DNA of 64,000 bases, from positions 1 through 64,000 of the forward strand of contig ONGA01000001.1 of the NCBI GenBank assembly GCA_900317285.1, given 5' to 3'. Under the pieces are notes generated by a model. It saw only the letters and a list, made by a program, of their open reading frames with translations, did not search any database and had not been told where the DNA came from. The position numbers were made by a program, and so were the translations under genes. Every line of letters begins with the position of its first letter. Position 1 is the stretch's first letter. This document shows, one piece after another, positions 44,082 to 59,469 of the stretch. The DNA is from an uncultured Bacteroidales bacterium. Its GTDB lineage: Bacteria > Bacteroidota > Bacteroidia > Bacteroidales > P3.

Positions 44082-46415
44082 GTGAAACAGATTCAGCGAC
44101 AGCAACTGCAGCAGAAGCTATCACCGCAACAGCTACAACTGATGCGGCTGCTGCAGTTGCCAGTCACTGAACTCGAACAAGCCATCAAGGAGGAAATCGA
44201 GAAAAATCCCCTCCTCGAGGCCGAAGCGCCTGCCGACGAAGACATCGACCGCATCGTCTCTGCCGACAACAACCGCTCGGACTGGGATACCGACGAGGAG
44301 GATTTCGACTACGACTACCGCGAACACGAGGAGCACGACCCCAATACACCGCGACGCGAATTCATCGTCGCCGACAGCCAGACCTTTGCCGACCGGCTTG
44401 CAGCGCAGCTCGTCACCAGAAACCTCGACGAACGGCAACGTCTCATTGCCGACGAACTTATCGGCTCGCTCGACGAGGCAGGCTATCTCGGTCGCGACCT
44501 TGCCCTCATTGCCAACGACATGGCATTCCGCCAAGGTATCGACACCTCACAGGAAGAGGTCCTCGCCGTGCTCCGCATCATCCAGAGTCTAGACCCTGCG
44601 GGCATCGGTGCACGCAGCCTGCAGGAATGCCTGCTACTGCAACTGGAAAGAATGACATCAGGAAATTCAGAACATTCCGATTACTCAGACATTCTTTCCA
44701 CCGCCACTGCCATCATACGCGACCATTTCGACGACTTCGCCAACCATCGCTACGAGCGCATCCGTGATGCACTCGGCATCGACGAGCAGCGTCTCAACGA
44801 TGCCGCCACCTTTATCCGCCACCTCAACCCCAAACCCGGCGGATCGGAAGCCGAAAGCGACATCGCCGCCACGGCTTTGACACCCGACATCGTCCTTCAC
44901 CAGCACGACGGAGAACTGCAGTTCTACATCAACGACGGTCACCTGCCGCAGCTCAGCCTCAACAGCTACTATACCGACATGCTGGCGGAAATGGAGAAGA
45001 ACGCCGCCCATGCCTCGCGCGGAGAGAAGGAAACCCTCGCCTTCCTACGCACCAAACAGAGCGATGCGCAAGGATTCATCGACCTTCTGCAGCAGCGGCA
45101 CGACACCATCACACGGGTGATGAAATACATCCTCCACCACCAAAAGCTGTTCCTTCTCACTGGCAATCCCACCCTCCTCATGCCGTTGCGCCAGCGCGAA
45201 GTGGCAGAAGCCACAGGACTCGACATTTCCACGGTGTCGCGCATGGCGAACAGCAAATACCTGCAGACCGATTTCGGCACCATCCCGCTGAAAGAGTGCT
45301 TTTCTCTCGGCATCGCCAACGACGAGGGTGAGGAAGTGTCGACAGAAAGCATCAAGCAGCGCCTCTCCGACGCCATACAGGCCGAGGACAAGCAGGCGCC
45401 CCTCTCCGACGACGCATTGGCACAAATGCTTAATGCACAAGGAATTCCTCTGGCCCGACGCACCGTGGCGAAATACCGTGAACAACTCGGGATCCCCGTG
45501 GCACGGCTGCGCAGGACGCTGATGCTGGCAATCCTGCTTCTTTCTGGCATCGTCACCGGACAAGGTCAGGTGTCCTACTACGACTCGCTCATCGCCGTAC
45601 GTCTGGAAAAGGCCAAACGCCAAAGCACCCCGAAGACTGAGGCGAAGAAGCCCGAAACTCCCAAAGCGGCAGTGGGCAAGAAAGCCGCCTCCCCAACAGA
45701 CAACACATCCAATAAAAGCGTCGAGACCGCCGTCGCACCGACCTCTTCTTTGGAGGCTTACATGGTTCCTCTTTGGTACGACGCCTTCCCTTCGTACCGT
45801 GTCAACCCCCTCGGACGCACCCGTCTCGACAATCTGCCAGACGAAATCAACATCAAGCTGGTGTCCGACTCCTCCGACTTCTGTTTCCCCATCAAAAAGC
45901 CTAAAACTTCCAACTACGGTTGGCGATGGCAACGCGGACATCACGGCGTCGACATTGGTCTGAATACCGGGGATCCCATCCGCGCCGCTTTCAGCGGTGT
46001 AGTGCGCGTAGCGACACGCATGGGAGGCTACGGCAACTGCATCGTCATACGCCATCCCAACGGGCTCGAAACGCTCTACGGACACCTCTCCAAAATCAAC
46101 GTCAAACCCAACCAGGAGATTGCTGCCGGCGACATCATAGGACTCGGTGGCAACACCGGAAACTCCACCGGACCGCACCTCCACTTCGAATGTCGATTCC
46201 TCTACCAGACATTCGACCCGGAATGGATTCTCGATTTCACCAATTACACTCTCCGCACCCGTCGGCTACACCTCGACAAAAGCTACTTCGGAATCCATCA
46301 GCCCCGAAAAGGGCAAACCCTTGACTACAAAGCCGACCAAAGCATCATCAAAGAAACCAAGAAAGGGAAGAAGCGCAACAGCAATCCCCCCGCATACAAT
46401 ATCAACGACTTTTAA
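44082..46415 (+). CDS. rpoN: sigma-54 (RpoN) fused in frame to an M23 peptidase
   Basis: One 777-codon frame carries two proteins. Residues 1-480 are sigma-54: the glutamine-rich activator region (KQIQRQQLQQKLSPQQLQLM), core-binding region, HTH (LRQREVAEATGLDISTVSRM, near 370) and RpoN box (ARRTVAKYREQLGIP, about 458-472). Directly after LRR comes a hydrophobic stretch TLMLAILLLSGIVTG (479-493), a Lys/Pro/Thr-rich linker and a complete M23/LytM domain with HHGVDIG (about 620) and GPHLHFE (about 697), the zinc ligands of an active endopeptidase. Normally these would be separate genes. Read as one, the product would be a sigma factor anchored in the inner membrane with a periplasmic wall hydrolase. 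GTG at 45498 or ATG at 45522 could start the peptidase separately. A single-base indel would also separate the genes, so the fusion needs confirmation. Confidence 0.85.
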   Translation: MKQIQRQQLQQKLSPQQLQLMRLLQLPVTELEQAIKEEIEKNPLLEAEAPADEDIDRIVSADNNRSDWDTDEEDFDYDYREHEEHDPNTPRREFIVADSQTFADRLAAQLVTRNLDERQRLIADELIGSLDEAGYLGRDLALIANDMAFRQGIDTSQEEVLAVLRIIQSLDPAGIGARSLQECLLLQLERMTSGNSEHSDYSDILSTATAIIRDHFDDFANHRYERIRDALGIDEQRLNDAATFIRHLNPKPGGSEAESDIAATALTPDIVLHQHDGELQFYINDGHLPQLSLNSYYTDMLAEMEKNAAHASRGEKETLAFLRTKQSDAQGFIDLLQQRHDTITRVMKYILHHQKLFLLTGNPTLLMPLRQREVAEATGLDISTVSRMANSKYLQTDFGTIPLKECFSLGIANDEGEEVSTESIKQRLSDAIQAEDKQAPLSDDALAQMLNAQGIPLARRTVAKYREQLGIPVARLRRTLMLAILLLSGIVTGQGQVSYYDSLIAVRLEKAKRQSTPKTEAKKPETPKAAVGKKAASPTDNTSNKSVETAVAPTSSLEAYMVPLWYDAFPSYRVNPLGRTRLDNLPDEINIKLVSDSSDFCFPIKKPKTSNYGWRWQRGHHGVDIGLNTGDPIRAAFSGVVRVATRMGGYGNCIVIRHPNGLETLYGHLSKINVKPNQEIAAGDIIGLGGNTGNSTGPHLHFECRFLYQTFDPEWILDFTNYTLRTRRLHLDKSYFGIHQPRKGQTLDYKADQSIIKETKKGKKRNSNPPAYNINDF
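44664..44694. repeat. 9-bp array inside rpoN
   Basis: AATTCAGAA, CATTCCGAT, TACTCAGAC, ATTC in 9-nt phase encodes SEHSDYSD in the sigma-54 core-binding region. Its reverse complement matches the array in the DUF4159 gene at 21 of 24 positions. Confidence 0.7.
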
Positions 46416-48516: not shown

Positions 48517-51500
48517 ATGAAAAAAATGTTTAGACGATTGATAATGGCAACCCTGCTCTCAACCCCGACAGGCTTATGGGGGCAGAGCGTAGTGAACAGC
48601 TATCCTTATACTTGTGGTTTCGAGACTGAAGCAGAAGCCAGCCAATGGCAGTTGGTGAACTCCAATAACAACGCCTGGGTGATAGGCACAGCCACACAGC
48701 ATGCCGGCCAACGGAGCCTCTACATCTCCGATGATGCTGGCGAGAACAACGCCTACACCAACATAGCGGCATCGGCATCGTATGCCTACTTGACGCTGTA
48801 CATGGAATCCACCTCCGACTATGAGATCAGTTTCGATTGGCAAGGCTACGGCGAGAGCAACTACGACTACATGCGGGCATGGATAGTACCCGAAGAATAC
48901 CTGCTATCCGCCAATGTGCTCCCCAACGGCGGCTCGGTGACCTCATCCTCACAGCTGTCGACAAACGCCACCTACAATCCTCCCACAGCCATCGACCTCG
49001 CCAACGGAAAGATTAACCAGAGCAGCGTATGGAGACACCTTGAGTCACATGTTAGTGTCGCCACCAGCGGCTACTATAAATTGGTCCTGATGTGGGCGAA
49101 CGATGCCTCTCTGGGCAGCAATCCCCCTGCAGCCATCGACCAGGTAAAAATCAGGGCAATTCCCTGCCGCAGCGTCACCAACCTCCGCATCGCGGCTGTC
49201 GGAGCGGAATCGGTCACCTTGTCGTGGAACGCCTCTCCCAGCAACCCCGAACGCTATATCATCAACTATTCCAACAGCGGCTACGCCGAAACCACCGATA
49301 CAAGCATCGTTATCGGAGATCTCGATCCCAACACACAATACTCCTTTGAAGTGTTGGCACAGTGCTCGTCCGAATCCCGTTCTCTCTCCGCCGCAATAGA
49401 TGTACACACAGCCTGCGCCGCAAGGGATCTTCCTTACACCGTCGACTTCGAAAGCGACCTGAACGACGAAACCTACACGCTACCCTACTGCTGGAACAGA
49501 CTGGTTGTCGGCAATCCCTACTACGACCACTATCCCTATGTCTACGAAGATTATTCCCAGTACAGCTATTCCGGAGAGAATGCGCTCTACTACTACGCCT
49601 ATAGTTCCAACTACTATGCCGACACTGTTCTGATGGTGTTGCCACAGGTCAACGTCGAAGAATTCCCGATGATAAACAACCAGATTGTCTTCTGGGGTCA
49701 GACCTCCTCCTACTATGGCAACCTGGTGAAACTCATCGTGGGTACCATGAGCAACCCCAGCGACATACACTCCTTCGTCCCGGGGCGTGAGATTACCTTT
49801 GCCTCCGACGAATACACCGAACTGAAAGCCCCCCTCTCCCCCCAGCGCGAGACCTCTAACGCCTTCCCCGCCATCATGATGCTGAAGCCCACCTCCGGCA
49901 GCATCTCGATGTATATCGACGATGTGACGGTGCGCGTGGCTCCCGACTGCGACTATCCCTCCGCCTTCCGCAGCACCGGCCGCACCTCCAACTCCATCGA
50001 CCTGGATTGGTTCAACACCTGCATCAATCCCACGCAATGGCTGCTCGAAATAAGCCACAACGGTGACACCTCCACTCTAGTGTTGGACGACAACGAGGTA
50101 TCGTACACCATCGTCGACTCCTCCTATGCCAACCCCCGCATGGGTGCTTTGGTGCGCTATACCCTCGAGGGTCTCACCCACAACACCACCTACAACATCC
50201 GCCTCCGCTGCATCAGCGGCAACGATACCACCGGTTGGGCGCAGAATCCCCTGCGAGTGAGAACCAGCAACACCGAGAGCGACATTCTCGCATTCGAGCT
50301 TTATGATGACGAAATTCGCCGTGGCGATGCCATCATCGACTCTGTCGAGCACCGCGTCACCGTCCCCATCTACTACACCGAAAGTCTCGAGGATTCCTGG
50401 GGCAACTTCACGCTCTCCGACTATGCCGAGATGTTCCTCTTCGATGGCGACGAACTCATCGACATCTACAGTTTCTACAACCTCCTTGAATATGCAGAGC
50501 CGAATGTATCGCTATATGTCCGCGTCATGGCCGAGGACGGCGAGAACTACACCGACTGGGAGATTATCTTCGAGACCGAAGCATGCTCCTCGCCCCGCAA
50601 TCTTGAGGTGGAGCCCGGACGCACCTTCCTGCACGCCTTCTGGACCAACCTCGACCCCTCCGTGCTAGGCTATGCCGCCATCTGCAGCCCCGTGCCGCTC
50701 GACTCCGCAGCCCTCGCCAACGCCGAATACATTGAGGTCAATGCCGACGAGTACACCTTCACAGGTCTCGAACGCGAAACCCTCTACCATATCTACCTCC
50801 GCTCGCTGTGCGCCACCGACAACTCCAGCTGGGTTAACGCCGATATCCGCACCGTGGGCCTGGTTTTCTGCGACACCGTGGTCATCGCCAACGACACCCT
50901 GCAGAACAGCCACGTCCCCATGTACAGCGACGCGCAGGACAACCACTATCGCATGCAGGCCGTCTACCCGGCATCCATGCTGAAAGACCTCAAGGGCGAA
51001 GAACTGCGCAACCTCACCTTCTTCCCGGTGGGCACCTCCGTGGGTGAAGAGGGCGACTGGGCAGGCCCCCTTGGCAATGTCTTCACTGTCAAACTGGCTA
51101 CAACCACCCAGAACGATGTCTCCCGCAACTGGGTCAACGGCGATGCCGTCACCGTCTTCCACGGCACCATCGCCACCGTCACCCCCGAGGGAGGCATGAC
51201 GTTCACCTTCAACACCCCCTTCACCTACACCGGCGGCAACCTCGTGGTGGAACTCCTGAGTGAGCATGCCAAGCAGTACTCCGAGTGTCCCTTCTACGGC
51301 ACCGCACGCACTGGTGCCAGCCGTCATGAATACGGCAACAGCTACCTGACCGGCGCCGGCATCGACGAGGACTTCCTTCCCAAGTTCATGACCGCCCTGT
51401 GTGTCAACGACACCGCCTGCCCCACTGTGAGGAACGTCACTTTCAGCGACATCGACGAGCATGACGTCACCATCAGCTGGACCGCCTCCGACGGCGACTA

Positions 51501-54500
51501 TGCCATCGGTTGCGACGTCATCATGTCCACCACCGAAATCGACGACCTCGACAACTACTCCGGCGAGATTGCCTACTCTGGCTCCGACACCACCTTCACG
51601 GCCACCGGCCTCCTCGACTATACGCTCTACCATGTCTACATCCGCACCAACTGCAACGACGGGCTCGGTCACGACGACGGCACCAGCCAGTGGGTCTACC
51701 GCCAGGTGCATACGGCTTCCGAATGCCGTATCGCCGACTCCATCACCCCCGTCATCACCAGCCGCACCACAGCAACCATCAAATGGGTCAACACCGGCGC
51801 CAGCCTTGGCCAGACCGACCACTTCGGATGCTTCTTCTCCGACACCCCGCTCGACGAAAGCACACTCGATAGCGATGTCCCTCACTACCACTCCTCCGTC
51901 GACAGCCTTAATCTCGACAACCTTCTGCCCGGCCACACCTACTACTTCTACATCCACAACCACTGCACCGACATCGGCACCCACTCGCCCTGGACCTCCC
52001 TGGTCTTCTCCATGTACGACTCCATGCCCGCCGTCGTCAACCTCCACGGCGACCCCGTCGCCCACACCTCCATCCGCGCTGTCTGGGAGACCGACACCGC
52101 CCGTTTCGCCGACGAGACCGCCTGGCAGGTAGCCATCACCACCCCCGGTGGTACTCCGGCTGAAGGCGACTGGATTGTTGTCACCGAACGCAACCACACC
52201 TTTATCGGCCTCTCCAGCGCCACAGCCTACGACATCCATGTGCGCCCCTACAACATCCTCACCCTCCAACACGGCAGCTCCACAGTGGAAACCATAACCA
52301 CCCACCTTTTGCCCTCTACGTGTATCGACCAGGGATTCGACCATTCTGGAGGTTTCAATTTCTCCACCAGCTACTACACTCCCATCTACGGCTACTGGGC
52401 CGACACCCGCCAACGCACCCAGTCCATCTATCCCGCCTCTATGCTCTCCAACCTTGTCGGCAAAACAATCACCTCCCTCCGCTACTACCCCATCGACGAA
52501 TATGACTATTACGGAATCGAGGGCTTGCCTGACAACACCTTCACCGTCTGGATGACCACCACCGACATCGATAGCTTTGATGAAGAGAACATGGAATTCA
52601 TCGACGACAACCTCACTCAGGTCTATACGGGAACCCTGCCGGCTAGCGAAGAGGACGGCATGTTAGTCCTTTTCGACACCCCCTTCACATACACAGGCGG
52701 CAACCTGGTGATTGAATTCAAAAAAGATTATGAAGGAGGCGCCTACACCAGCATGGCATTCCAAGGCATCGAAATGACTGGTGCCAGCCTTCTGCAGTAC
52801 GAATACGATTCTTACTACGGCACTGAATCAGAAGAGATTGTCGACGACTTCCTCCCCATCTTCCAGGCATGCTATGCAGGCTCTGAAGAGAGCTGCTACC
52901 AGGAAGCCAATCTGACAGCCGACGACATTGAAAACAACAGCGCCACCGTTTTTTGGATGCCCGGCAACCAGGAAACCTCCTGGCAATATGCCTACGGCAC
53001 CGAGGAAATGGACGACGCCACCCTCGAGGCCAACAGCCTTTCCACCACCGTCACTTCTGTCAGGCTCACCGGTCTGCTTGGCGACAAGGACTACTACTTC
53101 TATGTGCGCCACCAGTGCAACGATGCCAGCTATACCCCCTGGCAAAGCATCCGTTTCGCCACTCTACCCACCTGCGGGCTGCCTACGCTGCTGGAAGCCG
53201 ACAACATCACCGACACAAGCGCCGCCCTGCATGCCGAACCCTCGGAGATTGGCAGCCCTGAAGGGTACCTCTTCCGCTATTGGACCGAGGGTGGTCCAGA
53301 GTTGGTCCAGCCTTCCTCCAGCGAAGATGCAGAGATCACTGGTCTGCTTCCCAACACCGTCTACTTCTACGACGTGCAGGCCATTTGCGGCATCGGCGAC
53401 TCGAGCCGCCGCACCGCCCCATTATCTTTCCTCACCCCGTGCACCCCGGCCGCTCTTCCTCTCGTCTCCAGTTTCGAGGACGACGATGCCGTCCTCCCCT
53501 GCTGGCGTACCGTCTCGATGGATCCTGACGAAAAGAACCCAATAGAGATTTACGAGGATTACATTGAAGGAAGGAAATACCTGCGTTTCTCCTCCTACAA
53601 TTCCTCCCCCGACTACAACCAGTATGCCTTCTCTCCCCTGTTCTCCGGCGAGGCGGAGATGAGAGCCTCCATCAAGTACTACACCGAGAGAAGCAGCGAC
53701 CATCTGTGGTTCGGTTATTCCACCGGATGGACCACCAACCCCGACGACTTTATTTGGACCGACAAATACTACACCTCTTCCAGCGAGACATTCTACCATA
53801 CCGTATTGCCCGCCGATGCCAAGCGCATTGCCATCCACTACTATGGCGATTACGCCTACTATGCCTACATCGATTCCGTGTTTGTCGACATCATTCACGA
53901 CTACACTGTCAATGCGGAAAGTGCCAATACCAGCATGGGCTCTGTCGACGGTCAGACGGGAACTCTGCGGGAGCTCTCCGTCGACACCCTGACAGCCATT
54001 GAAAACGAAGGCTACCACTTCGACCACTGGGCCGATGCCAGCGGCAACATCGTCAGCACCGACAATCCCTATGTCTTCACCGTGCTTAGCAACCGCGACC
54101 TCTTTGCGCACTTCGCCCCCAACGTCTACACCATCAGCGTCATGCTGCCGCCCCGTCAGGACAGCCGCGGCACCCGCTCGGGCGGCGGTAGCTACAACTA
54201 CCTCGACACCGCCGTCATCGCCGTCACTCCCGCCACAGGCTTCCAGTTCCTCCGTTGGAACGATGGCGACACCAACAATCCGCGTAGCGTGGTGGTCACC
54301 GGCGACGCCATGTTCATGGCCACGCTTGACACCGCCGTCTACCCCGTCACCACCGCCGCACGCGAACCCGAGATGGGCTCCGTCGTGGCTCCCGCCATTG
54401 TCAAGCACTTCACCTCGGTCACCCTCCGTGCGCTCACCAACTACGGCTACCACTTCACCCACTGGAGCAATGTCAACGAAGACGCCGTCAGCACCGACAC

Positions 54501-57500
54501 CTTCTTCACCGTCAACCCCGTTATAGGCCCCATCATCGCCTATGCCAACTACGACTACAACCAGTACACCGTCAACGCCGTCAGCAACAACAACGCCTGG
54601 GGCGCCGCCTTCGGCTCCCGCAGCGTCAACTACCTCACCCCCGTCACCCTCACCGCCAACCCCAACCCGGGCTTCCACCTGGTGCGTTGGAGCAACGGCG
54701 AGACCTCGCGCACCATCTCGGTCAACGCCACTGCCAACCTCACGCTCACGGCCATCTTCGACACCAATATATATGTAGTGTCCGCACATCCCCGCGACAC
54801 CGCCATGGGCATCGTCCACAGTGTTGACTCGGCACGCCACTTCACCTCCGTCGCCATCCTCGCCGAAGAGAAGTACGGCTACTCCTTCGTCAACTGGACC
54901 GACAACTCGGGCCGCGTGGTCGGCACCGACCGTCTCTATGAGGTCGACTCAGTGATGGGAGCCATCCATGTCACCGCCAACTTCACGCCCCTGCGCTTCA
55001 CCGTCGCCGGCCATACCAGCAATCCCACGCGTGGCAGCGTGCGCGGCACCTCGACGGTCTCCTACCTCTTCCCCGTCATCCTCACCGCCTCCGCCAATCC
55101 GGGCTATACCTTCAGCCACTGGAGCAACGGCAGCACCGACAACCCCGTGACCATCATAGCCACATGCGACAGCAATCTCACCGCCATCTTCGACAAGATG
55201 GACTACACCATCCAGCTCACCAGTGCCGACACCACCATGGGCTATGTCACAGGTTCCGGCCACTACCCCTACGGCGCTTCCGCCACCGCCACCGCCATCC
55301 CCTACTATGGCTACCACTTCCTCCGCTGGAGCAACGGCATCACCAGCGCCTCCGCGACCTTCAGCGTCAAGGAGAACGTCAACGTGACGGCCTACTTCGA
55401 CTATAACCAGTACACTGTCAACGGCAGCGCCAACAATCCCGCCATGGGCTCCGTCAGCGGCAGCGGCCGCACCAACTACCTCTCCGCCGTCACCCTCACC
55501 GCCAATGCCAATCCGGGCTACCACCTCTCGCATTGGAGCACGGGCGACACCACCGTCACCATCAACGTCACTGCCCTGCGCGACACTGTCGTCACCGCCT
55601 TCTTCGCCCCCAACCGCTATGCCATCCGCGGCATCAGCGACAACCCCGCCATGGGTTCCGTCGCGGGCTCCGACACGGCCGACTACGCCACCTCCGTCAC
55701 CCTCACCGCCGTCCCCGCCACAGGCTACCACTTCACCGCCTGGAATGACGACAATAGCGACAACCCGCGCGTCGTCACCGCCATCGCCGACTCGCTGCTC
55801 ACAGCCTCCTTCGCCATCAACAGCTACACCGTCGTCGTGCGCTACAACAGCGCCCAGGGTTCCATAGCCGACAGCACCGGCATGCCCGTCGCCGACGAGA
55901 CCTCCTTCCCCGTCCTCCACGGCGACACCCTGGTCTTCGTCGCCACCCCCGCCACCAGCTACCGCACTGGCGGCTGGAGCGACGGCATCCACACCTTCGC
56001 CGGTAGCGACACCCTCCGCTACGTGGCCCTCCGCAATGCCACCCTCAACGCCATCTTCACCGATGCCGGCAGCGCCGTGGTATCCGTCACCGCCAACGAT
56101 CCCGCCATGGGTGTCGTCATCGGCAGCGGCGCCTACCACCGCGACAACGAGGTGCACATCTTGGCCATTCCCAATGCCAACTACCACTTCCTCCACTGGC
56201 TCGTCAACGGCAACGAGGGCACCGTCGACTCTGCCGACCACCGCTTCGTCCTTGCCGACGACATCACCTTCCAGGCCGTCTTCGCCATCGACACCCACAG
56301 CGTGACCCTTGCCGCCGACCCGACCATGGGCTCTGTCAGCGGCAGCGGTCTCTATCCCTACGGCTCCTCAGCCACCATCAGCGCTGCGGGCATCAACCAC
56401 CACCACTTCACCCATTGGAACGACGGCAATGCCGACAATCCCCGTAGCGTCACGGTGAACCGCAGCCTCTCCTTCTCCGCGCTCTTCGCCATCGACCGCC
56501 ACGCTGTCAACGTCGCCGCCAACGACACGCTCATGGGTTCCGCCACAGCGGTCGACTCGGCCGACTACGGCACCTCCGTCACCCTCCACGCCACTCCCAA
56601 CCACGGCTACCACTTCCTCCGCTGGAGCAACAACAGCACCGACAGCACGCTCACCCTCACCGTGGACGGCGACATCAACCTCACAGCCCTCTTCGCACCC
56701 GACAGCTACAGCGTCACCGCCGTCAGCGACAACACCCTCATGGGTACCGTCGCCGGAAGCACCTCGGCCGATTACCTCTCCACCGTCACCCTCGTCGCCA
56801 CGCCCAACTACGGCTACCGCTTCGACCACTGGAGCAACGGCAGCACCGACAGCCTCATATATATTGAAGTGCTGCGCGACAGCACCCTCACCGCCTTCTT
56901 CAGCCATCAGGCGTTCACCGTCAGCATCGACCACGACACCGCCATGGGCTCCGTCCTCGGTGTCGGCACCTACGACTACCTCTCCACCGTCACCCTCCGC
57001 GCCATGCCCAACACCGGCTACCGCTTCGTCGACTGGAGCACCGGTGAGGAGACCGACACCCTCGACATCGTCGTCAACGGCAACATCCATCTCAGTGCCA
57101 CCTTCGCCGCGAGAGTCTATACCGTCAGCGCACACGCCGACGCCACCATGGGCCATGTCGCCGGTTCCGGCAGCATCGCCCACTTCCAGTCCACCACCCT
57201 TGAGGCCACCGCCAACACAGGCTACCACTTCACCGGCTGGGCCACCACCGGCGGCACCATTCTCTCCACCGAGAGCACCCTCGTGGTCTTCCCCGTCAGC
57301 GACACCGCCTTCACCGCGCTCTTCGCCCCCAACCGCTACGCCGTCAACCTCAGCTGCAACGACACCCTCATGGGCACCGTCGCCGGTCCCGACAGCGCCG
57401 ACTTCCGCTCCTCGGTCACCGTCACCGCCACACCCCACTACGGCTACCACCTCGACCGCTGGAACAACGGTCTCGGCAGCGAGAGCCTGCTCGTGGAGGT

Positions 57501-59469
57501 TGAAAGCGACACCACGCTCATAGCCTCCTTCGCACCCAACACCTACACCGTCACCGGTCGCAGCGACAACACCGGCCTCGGCACCGTCACCGGTACCGCC
57601 AGCGTCAGCTACCTCACTCCCGTCACCCTCGTGGCGCACCCCGCCGAGGGTCACCACCTCGTGAAGTGGAGCGACGGCAGCACCGCCGAGTCCCTCACCG
57701 TCATCGCCGACAGCAACAAGACGCGCACCGCCTTCTTCGCCATCGACACCCACCATGTTGTCCTCCTCTGCAATACCGACCTCGGCACCGTCAGCGGCAG
57801 CGGCACCTACACCTACGGCACCACCGTAACCCTCGCCGTCACCCCCGCCGCCCACCACCACTTCCTCCGTTGGAGCGACGGCGTCACCGACAACCCGCGC
57901 ACCTATGTCGTCACCGCCGACACCACCCTCACCGCCATCCTCGACGTCGACAGCTGCACCGTGGCGCTCTCCGTCAGCTCCTCCAACGGCACCGTCAGCG
58001 GCAGCGGCACCTACCCCTATGGCTCCTCCGTCATCATCTCCGCCACTCCCGCCGAGCACTTCTCCTTCCTCCAGTGGTCCGACAACATCACCGACAACCC
58101 GCGCACACTCATCGTCACCTCCAACATCAGCCTCACGGCCATCTTCAGTGCCGAGCACTACACCGTGGCAGCCTCCTGCGACACCACCATGGGCACTGTC
58201 TCCGGTGTCGGCTCCTATGCCTATGGCGCTCGCGCCACCCTCACCGCCCTCCCCAAGACCCACTACCACTTCCTCCGCTGGAGCGACGGCAGCACCGTCA
58301 ACCCGCGTGAGTTCACTGTCGAGAACGATGTCAACCTCACCGCCTTCTTCGCCATCGACAGCTTCACCGTAGCCCTCTCCACCGACGCCTCCACAGGCTC
58401 CGTCAACGGCAGCGGCACCTACCCCTATGGCAGCACCGTCACCCTCGCCGCCACGCCCGCGCCCCACTACCACTTCGTCAGCTGGAGCGACGGCAACACC
58501 GTCAACCCGCGTAGCGTCACCCTCCATAGCGACATCACCCTCTCCGCGCTCTTCGCCATCGACAGCTTCACCGTCACCCTCCTCTGCGACACCACGGCGG
58601 GCACCGTCGGCGGCAGCGGCACCTACCCCTATGGCACCTCGCTCAGCCTCGTGGCAACGCCCAAGGGCTACCACACCTTCCAGGGCTGGAGCGACGGCAA
58701 CAGCGACAACCCGCGCGCCTTCACCGTGGAGAGCAACACCACACTCACCGCACTCTTCACCATCGACAGCTTCTACGTCAGCGTCAACTACAACGCCTCG
58801 CGCGGCAAGGTCACCGGCACAGGCCTCTATGCCAAGGGCGAGACCGCCACACTCACCGCCACGGGGCACAACCGCTTCCACTTCGTACGCTGGAACGACG
58901 GCAGCACCGTCAACCCGCGCTCCATCACCGTCATGAGCGACGTTGTCCTCACCGCCACCTTCGAGTACGACAGCATCCTCCTCATCGTCGACGTCAACAA
59001 CAGCGCCTGGGGCACCACCAGCCCTGAACCCGGCACACACGTCTACCATGTGGGCGACGAAGTGGTGCTCACCGCCACACCCTACGACGGCAGCACCTTC
59101 GTCAACTGGAGCATCCAGGGTGCCAACTTCGACCTTATCGGCAACAACGCCTACGGAACCCTCAACGCCGCCCTCGCTGGCGCCACCATCCATGCCACCG
59201 CCAACTTCAACAGCAGCGTGGGCATCGACGAGGCGGAAAGCGTCGACATCGTCCTCTTCCCCAACCCCGCCAGCGGCAACGTCACCCTCCAAGGGGTCCG
59301 CTCCGGTAGCCAGGTCTCCGTGGTCGACATGAACGGCCGCACCGTCCGCGACTTCGAAGCCGCCACCGACAACGTCCGCATCGACATCAGCGACCTCGCC
59401 CAGGGTGCCTACTTCGTCCGCATCACCGACGGCGGCACCAACACCATCCGCAAACTCATTGTCAAATAA
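48517..59469 (+). CDS. giant T9SS type-A surface protein with about 25 InlB-B-like repeats
   Basis: The 3650-residue protein has a signal peptide (MKKMFRRLIMATLLSTPTGL...), then about 1790 residues of mixed beta modules. These include MAM-like or jelly-roll segments (YPYTCGFETEAEASQW; DFESDLNDETYTLPYCW), fibronectin-III-like domains (RIAAVGAESVTLSWNASPSN) and two related blocks beginning SMLKDLKGEELRNLTFFP and SMLSNLVGKTITSLRYYP. Residues about 1795-3566 are tandem repeats of 65-80 residues of the divergent InlB-B type, with the pattern xMGxVxGSGxYxYGxxVTLxA, GYHFLRWSDGNxDNPR, LTAxFA. The end is a T9SS type-A sorting domain: VLFPNPASGN, VSVVDMNGR and a final GAYFVRITDGG. It should be secreted and displayed on the surface as a long fibre; an adhesin role is inferred. 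Single-gene unit with terminator. Confidence 0.9.
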   Translation: MKKMFRRLIMATLLSTPTGLWGQSVVNSYPYTCGFETEAEASQWQLVNSNNNAWVIGTATQHAGQRSLYISDDAGENNAYTNIAASASYAYLTLYMESTSDYEISFDWQGYGESNYDYMRAWIVPEEYLLSANVLPNGGSVTSSSQLSTNATYNPPTAIDLANGKINQSSVWRHLESHVSVATSGYYKLVLMWANDASLGSNPPAAIDQVKIRAIPCRSVTNLRIAAVGAESVTLSWNASPSNPERYIINYSNSGYAETTDTSIVIGDLDPNTQYSFEVLAQCSSESRSLSAAIDVHTACAARDLPYTVDFESDLNDETYTLPYCWNRLVVGNPYYDHYPYVYEDYSQYSYSGENALYYYAYSSNYYADTVLMVLPQVNVEEFPMINNQIVFWGQTSSYYGNLVKLIVGTMSNPSDIHSFVPGREITFASDEYTELKAPLSPQRETSNAFPAIMMLKPTSGSISMYIDDVTVRVAPDCDYPSAFRSTGRTSNSIDLDWFNTCINPTQWLLEISHNGDTSTLVLDDNEVSYTIVDSSYANPRMGALVRYTLEGLTHNTTYNIRLRCISGNDTTGWAQNPLRVRTSNTESDILAFELYDDEIRRGDAIIDSVEHRVTVPIYYTESLEDSWGNFTLSDYAEMFLFDGDELIDIYSFYNLLEYAEPNVSLYVRVMAEDGENYTDWEIIFETEACSSPRNLEVEPGRTFLHAFWTNLDPSVLGYAAICSPVPLDSAALANAEYIEVNADEYTFTGLERETLYHIYLRSLCATDNSSWVNADIRTVGLVFCDTVVIANDTLQNSHVPMYSDAQDNHYRMQAVYPASMLKDLKGEELRNLTFFPVGTSVGEEGDWAGPLGNVFTVKLATTTQNDVSRNWVNGDAVTVFHGTIATVTPEGGMTFTFNTPFTYTGGNLVVELLSEHAKQYSECPFYGTARTGASRHEYGNSYLTGAGIDEDFLPKFMTALCVNDTACPTVRNVTFSDIDEHDVTISWTASDGDYAIGCDVIMSTTEIDDLDNYSGEIAYSGSDTTFTATGLLDYTLYHVYIRTNCNDGLGHDDGTSQWVYRQVHTASECRIADSITPVITSRTTATIKWVNTGASLGQTDHFGCFFSDTPLDESTLDSDVPHYHSSVDSLNLDNLLPGHTYYFYIHNHCTDIGTHSPWTSLVFSMYDSMPAVVNLHGDPVAHTSIRAVWETDTARFADETAWQVAITTPGGTPAEGDWIVVTERNHTFIGLSSATAYDIHVRPYNILTLQHGSSTVETITTHLLPSTCIDQGFDHSGGFNFSTSYYTPIYGYWADTRQRTQSIYPASMLSNLVGKTITSLRYYPIDEYDYYGIEGLPDNTFTVWMTTTDIDSFDEENMEFIDDNLTQVYTGTLPASEEDGMLVLFDTPFTYTGGNLVIEFKKDYEGGAYTSMAFQGIEMTGASLLQYEYDSYYGTESEEIVDDFLPIFQACYAGSEESCYQEANLTADDIENNSATVFWMPGNQETSWQYAYGTEEMDDATLEANSLSTTVTSVRLTGLLGDKDYYFYVRHQCNDASYTPWQSIRFATLPTCGLPTLLEADNITDTSAALHAEPSEIGSPEGYLFRYWTEGGPELVQPSSSEDAEITGLLPNTVYFYDVQAICGIGDSSRRTAPLSFLTPCTPAALPLVSSFEDDDAVLPCWRTVSMDPDEKNPIEIYEDYIEGRKYLRFSSYNSSPDYNQYAFSPLFSGEAEMRASIKYYTERSSDHLWFGYSTGWTTNPDDFIWTDKYYTSSSETFYHTVLPADAKRIAIHYYGDYAYYAYIDSVFVDIIHDYTVNAESANTSMGSVDGQTGTLRELSVDTLTAIENEGYHFDHWADASGNIVSTDNPYVFTVLSNRDLFAHFAPNVYTISVMLPPRQDSRGTRSGGGSYNYLDTAVIAVTPATGFQFLRWNDGDTNNPRSVVVTGDAMFMATLDTAVYPVTTAAREPEMGSVVAPAIVKHFTSVTLRALTNYGYHFTHWSNVNEDAVSTDTFFTVNPVIGPIIAYANYDYNQYTVNAVSNNNAWGAAFGSRSVNYLTPVTLTANPNPGFHLVRWSNGETSRTISVNATANLTLTAIFDTNIYVVSAHPRDTAMGIVHSVDSARHFTSVAILAEEKYGYSFVNWTDNSGRVVGTDRLYEVDSVMGAIHVTANFTPLRFTVAGHTSNPTRGSVRGTSTVSYLFPVILTASANPGYTFSHWSNGSTDNPVTIIATCDSNLTAIFDKMDYTIQLTSADTTMGYVTGSGHYPYGASATATAIPYYGYHFLRWSNGITSASATFSVKENVNVTAYFDYNQYTVNGSANNPAMGSVSGSGRTNYLSAVTLTANANPGYHLSHWSTGDTTVTINVTALRDTVVTAFFAPNRYAIRGISDNPAMGSVAGSDTADYATSVTLTAVPATGYHFTAWNDDNSDNPRVVTAIADSLLTASFAINSYTVVVRYNSAQGSIADSTGMPVADETSFPVLHGDTLVFVATPATSYRTGGWSDGIHTFAGSDTLRYVALRNATLNAIFTDAGSAVVSVTANDPAMGVVIGSGAYHRDNEVHILAIPNANYHFLHWLVNGNEGTVDSADHRFVLADDITFQAVFAIDTHSVTLAADPTMGSVSGSGLYPYGSSATISAAGINHHHFTHWNDGNADNPRSVTVNRSLSFSALFAIDRHAVNVAANDTLMGSATAVDSADYGTSVTLHATPNHGYHFLRWSNNSTDSTLTLTVDGDINLTALFAPDSYSVTAVSDNTLMGTVAGSTSADYLSTVTLVATPNYGYRFDHWSNGSTDSLIYIEVLRDSTLTAFFSHQAFTVSIDHDTAMGSVLGVGTYDYLSTVTLRAMPNTGYRFVDWSTGEETDTLDIVVNGNIHLSATFAARVYTVSAHADATMGHVAGSGSIAHFQSTTLEATANTGYHFTGWATTGGTILSTESTLVVFPVSDTAFTALFAPNRYAVNLSCNDTLMGTVAGPDSADFRSSVTVTATPHYGYHLDRWNNGLGSESLLVEVESDTTLIASFAPNTYTVTGRSDNTGLGTVTGTASVSYLTPVTLVAHPAEGHHLVKWSDGSTAESLTVIADSNKTRTAFFAIDTHHVVLLCNTDLGTVSGSGTYTYGTTVTLAVTPAAHHHFLRWSDGVTDNPRTYVVTADTTLTAILDVDSCTVALSVSSSNGTVSGSGTYPYGSSVIISATPAEHFSFLQWSDNITDNPRTLIVTSNISLTAIFSAEHYTVAASCDTTMGTVSGVGSYAYGARATLTALPKTHYHFLRWSDGSTVNPREFTVENDVNLTAFFAIDSFTVALSTDASTGSVNGSGTYPYGSTVTLAATPAPHYHFVSWSDGNTVNPRSVTLHSDITLSALFAIDSFTVTLLCDTTAGTVGGSGTYPYGTSLSLVATPKGYHTFQGWSDGNSDNPRAFTVESNTTLTALFTIDSFYVSVNYNASRGKVTGTGLYAKGETATLTATGHNRFHFVRWNDGSTVNPRSITVMSDVVLTATFEYDSILLIVDVNNSAWGTTSPEPGTHVYHVGDEVVLTATPYDGSTFVNWSIQGANFDLIGNNAYGTLNAALAGATIHATANFNSSVGIDEAESVDIVLFPNPASGNVTLQGVRSGSQVSVVDMNGRTVRDFEAATDNVRIDISDLAQGAYFVRITDGGTNTIRKLIVK
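53902..59220 (+). repeat. coding tandem repeats (about 25 units of 200-240 bp)
   Basis: Counting by eye from YTVNAESANTSMGSVDG to the module ending ATANFNSS gives 25 units. Units 19-24 (about 57.7-59.0 kb) are the most alike (GSGTYPYGS, RWSDG, DNPR), earlier units are more diverged and unit 25 is atypical. This gradient suggests recent duplication near the C-terminal end. The region is GC-rich with strong codon bias, which produces long antisense frames that are not genes. Confidence 0.85.

Follow-up and report, generated by a model that had tools for sequence, protein, structure and literature searches.

In the window, the whole 64,000-nucleotide stretch of uncultured Bacteroidales DNA (contig ONGA01000001.1) that was analysed here, sigma-54 and an M23 peptidase are encoded in one open reading frame. 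This fusion looks genuine, long kept, conserved and unusual. The reading we favour, with somewhat more confidence than doubt, is that of a polyprotein, i.e. one precursor from which SPase I would free the peptidase, leaving sigma-54 with a membrane stub. Many species carry their only sigma-54 in one frame, through the RpoN box, with a wall enzyme whose export is predicted, and the DNA-binding tail of sigma-54 doubles as a putative signal-peptide n-region. The rpoN frames of other sampled Bacteroidota end soon after the RpoN box.

Architecture and distribution of the fused frame

The initial annotation had described an RpoN box that runs stop-free into a hydrophobic segment and a LytM-type peptidase, and this description holds: the frame of 777 aa contains four Pfam domains, all above cut-off. 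The same ORF scored 404 bits against the NCBIfam model rpoN_sigma (TIGR02395; cut-off 277). Its features are as follows.

44082..46415, + strand: rpoN–M23 fusion ORF, 777 aa, GTG start (translation without internal stop; Pfam)
44085..44219, + strand: Sigma54_AID, the activator-interacting region, residues 2–46 (Pfam PF00309, E 1.2e-12)
44364..44972, + strand: Sigma54_CBD, the core-binding domain, residues 95–297 (Pfam PF04963, E 3.5e-53)
45042..45515, + strand: Sigma54_DBD, residues 321–478 (Pfam PF04552, E 9.7e-48)
45453..45482, + strand: ARRTVAKYRE, the RpoN box, residues 458–467 (invariant in 36 aligned fused rows)
45498..45500, + strand: in-frame GTG, a disfavoured candidate internal start (GTG at the matching Val in 41/53 fused rows)
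45504..45515, + strand: RLRR, the end of sigma-54 and putative signal-peptide n-region (kept in fused rows)
45516..45566, + strand: hydrophobic core and c-region of the putative internal signal peptide (small residue–Gln pattern)
45520..45524, + strand: TGATG, a +1-frame TGA (45520–45522) overlapping the in-frame ATG at 45522 (sequence)
45567 or 45561, + strand: expected SPase I cut, before Q496 or before Q494, respectively (predicted from sequence)
45570..45761, + strand: variable linker that follows the putative signal peptide, residues 497–560 (dN/dS ~0.35 over residues 505–560)
45936..46220, + strand: Peptidase_M23, residues 619–713 (Pfam PF01551, E 3e-31)

After the box, the order in the window is QLGIPVARLRR, the hydrophobic stretch TLMLAILLLSGIVT and then GQGQ. 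The window's sigma-54 runs ~300 aa past the RpoN box, unlike the usual ending shortly after it. To place these features among relatives, 36 of 45 fused ORFs (the window plus the 44 fused among 68 named loci) were aligned. All 36 had the three sigma-54 domains in order with an intact box (Pfam), and the start position of the ORF was nearly invariant. The M23 residues H620, D624, H699 and H701, which fit the HxxxD (H620/D624) and HxH (H699/H701) zinc ligands, were invariant. Sequence relatives in the PDB included 3slu, 6muk, 5j1l and LytM (2b0p), and the M23 part looks like an intact LytM-type peptidase whose activity is predicted. Pfam detected only sigma-54 and M23 domains in the ORF, with no anti-sigma or further sensing domain.

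The gene 5′ of the fusion encodes an S46 peptidase and those 3′ of it lumazine synthase, then a formyl transferase. Further along the window (48517–59469) lies a gene for a protein of 3650 aa, probably a giant surface or secreted protein sorted by the T9SS; it contains 20 divergent stretches of InlB B-repeats, three of fn3 and the C-terminal sorting domain of a secretion system.

We sought the fusion protein first in 61 genomes and then in 190 genomes of the family. Fusions were called by a stop-free match and not by frame length; frame lengths can join across a stop (in G074, 799 = 492 + 1 + 306). Relatives, where the initial annotation had suggested looking for the same fusion, do carry it: rpoN and M23 were fused in 85 of 120 genomes of the window's genus (g1), which are drafts of at least 20 contigs. 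In 79 of the 120, a single stop-free match covered both domains, extending down to 45% identity, and those of the 79 that were fetched as loci were also translated. Six more fusions (G014, G075, G078, G083, G088, G097), which had come out of the search as two split matches, were recovered by stop-split translation. Nor did relatives consistently have two genes with a TGATG overlap, the arrangement that had been set against a fusion; the 79 best-scoring matches in the family were all fused. The rest of g1 comprised 29 genomes that were read and unfused (25 with two adjacent genes, two with a gene between them and rpoN and M23 ~500–700 bases apart, and two without M23 in the fetched stretch), four without a match at E ≤ 1e-60, and two that matched and were left unread (G126, G138).

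Outside g1, where 26 loci from other genera of the family were read one by one, there was one fusion, in G204 (locus L117) of genus g34. Several locus titles give sheep, goat, deer or yak rumen or gut, and the fusion carriers are a group of gut Bacteroidales, many of them from ruminants. An order-wide search at E ≤ 1e-120, too strict for distant fusions, matched 3/393 genomes, of which the window's own alone spans both domains stop-free. Apart from the window, no best-match frame was longer than 594 aa in an order sample (Sigma54_DBD match in 141/148 genomes) or 642 aa in a phylum sample (148/148); frames of 550–642 aa in these samples were judged by length, and a few are incomplete or cut at a contig end. 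Apparent rpoN fusions in G081, G206 and G207 (frames of 990–1043 aa) were rejected, stop-split translation giving an rpoN of 477–488 aa. The open-licence PMC papers searched contained no report of sigma-54 joined to a peptidase, M23 included. Annotation as a plain sigma-54 would hide the peptidase.

Constraint and apparent use of the fused sigma-54

Both fused halves are under strong purifying selection. Median dN/dS was 0.14 for the AID and CBD, 0.09 for the DBD and 0.07 for M23, and reached 0.47 in the signal-peptide region and 0.35 in the linker. These values come from 46 pairs that share sequences and are not independent, with dS saturation dropping eight pairs for the signal-peptide region and six for the linker.

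The fused sigma-54 appears functional and in use, because rpoN is single-copy, activators are present, and −24/−12 motifs are enriched, with one conserved upstream of a clp gene. One Sigma54_DBD match was found in 59/60 genomes and none in the remaining one (G003). This genome is 93% complete and has strong activator matches, so that either rpoN was lost or the assembly has a gap there. The activator domain (PF00158) matched at E ≤ 1.2e-64 in 40/40 genomes; as it matched in each of the 14 control genomes too, weaker matches say little and only the strong ones are counted. The motif TGGCAC-N5-TTGC occurred on average 13.7 times per genome in 34 fused genomes, compared with 5.4 in a control whose spacer was lengthened by two bases and 4.5 when the pattern was reversed, and exceeded the spacing control in 30/34 (two ties). 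The excess is not confined to fused genomes: five two-gene genomes gave 10.8 versus 5.4, and G003, without an rpoN match, gave 7 versus 4. Among the 40 genomes searched, G015 had the most exact sites (38, versus three with wrong spacing), possibly reflecting a large sigma-54 regulon.

The window's genome has 12 exact motif sites, only one of which lies outside every frame of at least 120 codons. This lone site (G000:C2:10892-10906, L205) is 48 bases upstream of a Clp_N-domain gene that is present in 38/40 genomes. Sites matching at 9–10 of 10 positions within 200 bases upstream of the Clp_N gene were found in 19/30 regions read and in 0/600 shuffles; they occurred in 16/25 fused genomes (absent in 9/25) plus three two-gene genomes. 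From these motifs, the Clp_N gene is a candidate sigma-54-controlled Clp chaperone. The overlap of motif sites with frames and the motif counts in two-gene genomes and G003 left our weighting of the readings unchanged, as did the two-base context test at the junction (below).

The junction and the start codons around it

For the hydrophobic piece at the junction, a cleavable signal peptide is the best reading. Across a junction set of 63 non-redundant fused rows, the box was followed by RLRR or RLRK, with one KLRR (L135). A small residue–Gln pair, a pattern short enough that chance may contribute, lay 12–29 residues past RLRR/K in 63/63 rows; it was A–Q in 59/63 or 56/63, by the pattern used. 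Q496 was nearly invariant in the 36-row alignment. With a basic n-region, a hydrophobic core and Gln behind a small residue, the fused junctions have the Q-rule SPase I pattern. In the excerpts of PMC5837995, cleavage by the Bacteroidetes SPase I exposes Gln in most substrates (>60% in P. gingivalis). The fusion resembles those Q-rule substrates in having Gln straight after the signal peptide, and differs from them, as far as the excerpts describe them, in that its signal peptide is internal, behind a whole cytoplasmic protein (PMC5837995).

Acidic residues were scarce right behind RLRR/K in fused rows, as an n-region would demand. One was found within two positions after RLRR/K in 1/63 fused rows versus 22/26 adjacent two-gene rows, and in 39/68 unfused rows, after exclusion of two unfused rows in which no box could be recognised. 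This scarcity fits an n-region role, whether the product is a polyprotein or comes from nested genes. In the two-gene relatives that were read, most M23 frames have their own signal-peptide-like stretch at the start.

Taken as a cleavable signal peptide, the hydrophobic piece points to a polyprotein cut by SPase I in preference to a permanently anchored sensor. For such a polyprotein we infer single-chain translation, export, cleavage and a membrane stub that is later trimmed. The ribosome would make the whole of sigma-54 (residues 1–478), folding in the cytoplasm, and its terminal basic RLRR would provide the internal signal peptide with an n-region. The Sec machinery would then insert the hydrophobic stretch N-in/C-out and export the peptidase, and SPase I would cut before Gln 494 or 496, releasing the M23 peptidase to the periplasm. 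Sigma-54 would keep a hydrophobic tail of ~15–17 residues as a tether to the inner membrane, brief or lasting, which a site-2 protease or another protease would probably trim.

The alternative that survives best is that of nested in-frame genes sharing the RpoN tail, in which an internal start (GTG 45498, ATG 45522 or another) would make the peptidase with its own signal peptide, the long frame being made too or only little. Both codons are in frame, and a TGA at 45520–45522 overlaps the ATG one frame away, all as the initial annotation had stated. The listing of start codons ran from the box to the fifth codon past RLRR. By the end of RLRR, 59/63 fused rows offer some in-frame ATG, GTG or TTG (the exceptions being L026, L031, L066 and L133), but no such position is common to all 63, 35/63 have no ATG near the junction, and L026 is without any candidate from codon −50 to +11. 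Neither did the internal candidates bear an initiation signature in upstream A, GC or folding. The 191 candidates in fused rows lie in a GC-rich, A-poor, structured context (upstream 17% A, 67% GC, mean MFE −18.1), unlike 78 rpoN ATG starts from fused and two-gene rows (40% A, 39% GC, MFE −5.2) and 18 separate M23 ATG starts (39% A, 39% GC, MFE −6.0).

Codon usage at the Val before RLRR was also considered. This Val is GTG in 41/53 fused rows versus 29.1 expected from gene-wide usage, an excess confined to the fused rows (observed versus expected in the other groups: 9 vs 8.5, 0 vs 2.1 and 5 vs 4.4). The excess had P = 0.005 with next-base context, but P = 0.11 once the next two bases (GC) were taken as context, and GTG makes up 0.89 of another conserved Val column. 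We do not favour selection for GTG 45498 as a start. A further Val, at −17, was rejected as a start; its GTG excess was seen in all four groups and is therefore not start-related.

In 11/27 adjacent two-gene relatives, the 30 codons ahead of the hydrophobic core of M23 contain no ATG, which makes a non-ATG internal start thinkable; these frames may reflect non-ATG starts, recoding or draft errors. In one of the two-gene loci (L126, G080), the signal peptide of the peptidase is in frame after the rpoN TAA, with no ATG, GTG or TTG before the hydrophobic core. Because of the candidates in 59/63 rows, the GTG excess and these ATG-less relatives, we keep nested genes as a contender, though an unlikely one; the in-frame GTG is there, but a shared start codon and an initiation signature are not. 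As the long frame is stop-free, the fusion protein would still be made even under nested starts.

Proposed fate of the sigma-54, known systems and probable origin

On the polyprotein reading, sigma-54 would be left at the membrane. E. coli RseP eliminates signal peptides from the membrane according to the abstract of PMC8144685, and a site-2 protease is encoded in the genome, making release of sigma-54 by such a protease plausible. That sigma-54 is tethered with its release dependent on export (SPase I first, then the site-2 protease), tying secretion and wall growth to a sigma-54 regulon that includes the Clp-domain gene, is a more doubtful extension which we would not expect to hold. The fusion makes it testable whether sigma-54 works while tethered, whether a signal peptide is cleaved behind a large folded cytoplasmic protein and whether the leftover signal peptide is removed by a site-2 protease.

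It is improbable, and more so than nested genes, that sigma-54 stays joined to the peptidase as a membrane-anchored factor, to be released when the state of the cell wall triggers regulated proteolysis. Such a sensor would share its order of sigma factor, hydrophobic segment and periplasmic domain with IutY and ECF52/SCO4117 as these appear in the excerpts of PMC8999054 and PMC5826349, and a site-2 protease is encoded. Against it stand the short core and the small residue–Gln pair in 63/63 rows, which give the segment a cleavable look, the variability of the signal-peptide region (dN/dS 0.47), the lack of an anti-sigma or additional sensing domain by Pfam, and the signal-peptide-like stretches that open most two-gene M23 frames. 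The anchored sigma factor of the initial annotation survives in part: sigma-54 does share a frame with a membrane-type segment, but a cleavable signal peptide is likelier than a permanent anchor.

A neutral, idle fusion, in which a single chain is made, the tail is quickly trimmed and neither function is affected, would suit the strong constraint and motifs retained by both halves, and also the unfused two-gene and three-gene neighbourhoods of relatives. The fusion has nevertheless been kept across a deep clade and has a further origin, most simply a separate one, and we consider idleness highly improbable; it would in any case oppose a regulatory meaning only and is compatible with the polyprotein mechanism. 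Artefactual loss of a stop through a sequencing or assembly error, raised in the initial annotation as a one-base error or mutation and conceivable in a draft-genome window with a TGA one frame away, is ruled out for practical purposes because the same frame recurs in 85/120 genomes of the genus and in 44/68 named loci.

The fbcH cytochrome b/c1 precursor of Bradyrhizobium is a bacterial polyprotein that is cleaved at an internal signal peptide; its products are both respiratory-chain subunits, unlike those of the fusion. Pro-sigma-K, another point of comparison, is of the sigma-70 type. Together with SpoIVFB it parallels the proposed polyprotein model in having a membrane-held sigma factor, a terminal segment and release by a site-2 protease, and differs from the fusion in its N-terminal pro-region and, within the excerpts of PMC10202637, in having no exported partner. 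RsiV/sigma-V is likewise similar in that signal peptidases (SipS/SipT) act first and a site-2 protease (RasP) second, but the substrate described in the same excerpts is an anti-sigma factor and not a sigma factor (PMC10202637). IutY (ECF243) and ECF52/SCO4117 have a sigma factor, a membrane segment and an extracytoplasmic part in one chain, like the fusion, and IutY is processed by Prc and RseP (excerpts of PMC8999054 and PMC5826349). These are ECF sigma factors with an anti-sigma or zinc-finger part and, in those excerpts, no peptidase (PMC8999054, PMC5826349), whereas the fusion combines sigma-54 with a segment resembling a signal peptide and a peptidase that looks intact.

We further considered the origin of the fusion. 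In eight loci that were viewed, including ones from genera g28, g34 and g35, rpoN is followed first by the gene of a multi-spanning membrane protein (~200 aa) and then by M23; one such membrane protein was scanned and had no Pfam match. The membrane-protein gene is mostly absent in g1, where rpoN and M23 abut or overlap. The in-frame share of adjacent two-gene pairs was discarded as a clue, since 11/27 in frame is near one third and therefore uninformative.

In a FastTree phylogeny of sigma-54 alone (133 sequences, long branches), 62/63 fused rows shared one branch with four unfused rows, and the g34 fusion (L117) lay inside a supported clade of nine rows with a gene between rpoN and M23. At least four changes of fusion state are needed on the tree, and the starred branches force two. 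The simplest reading would be two independent gains, the g34 fusion being separate, although tree counts cannot separate gain from loss; reversals inside g1 are unsure because the tree is a quick, single-gene and long-branched one. The fusion probably arose through gene loss followed by stop loss: once the intervening membrane-protein gene had gone, rpoN and the peptidase gene would have abutted, and the rpoN stop codon would then have disappeared.
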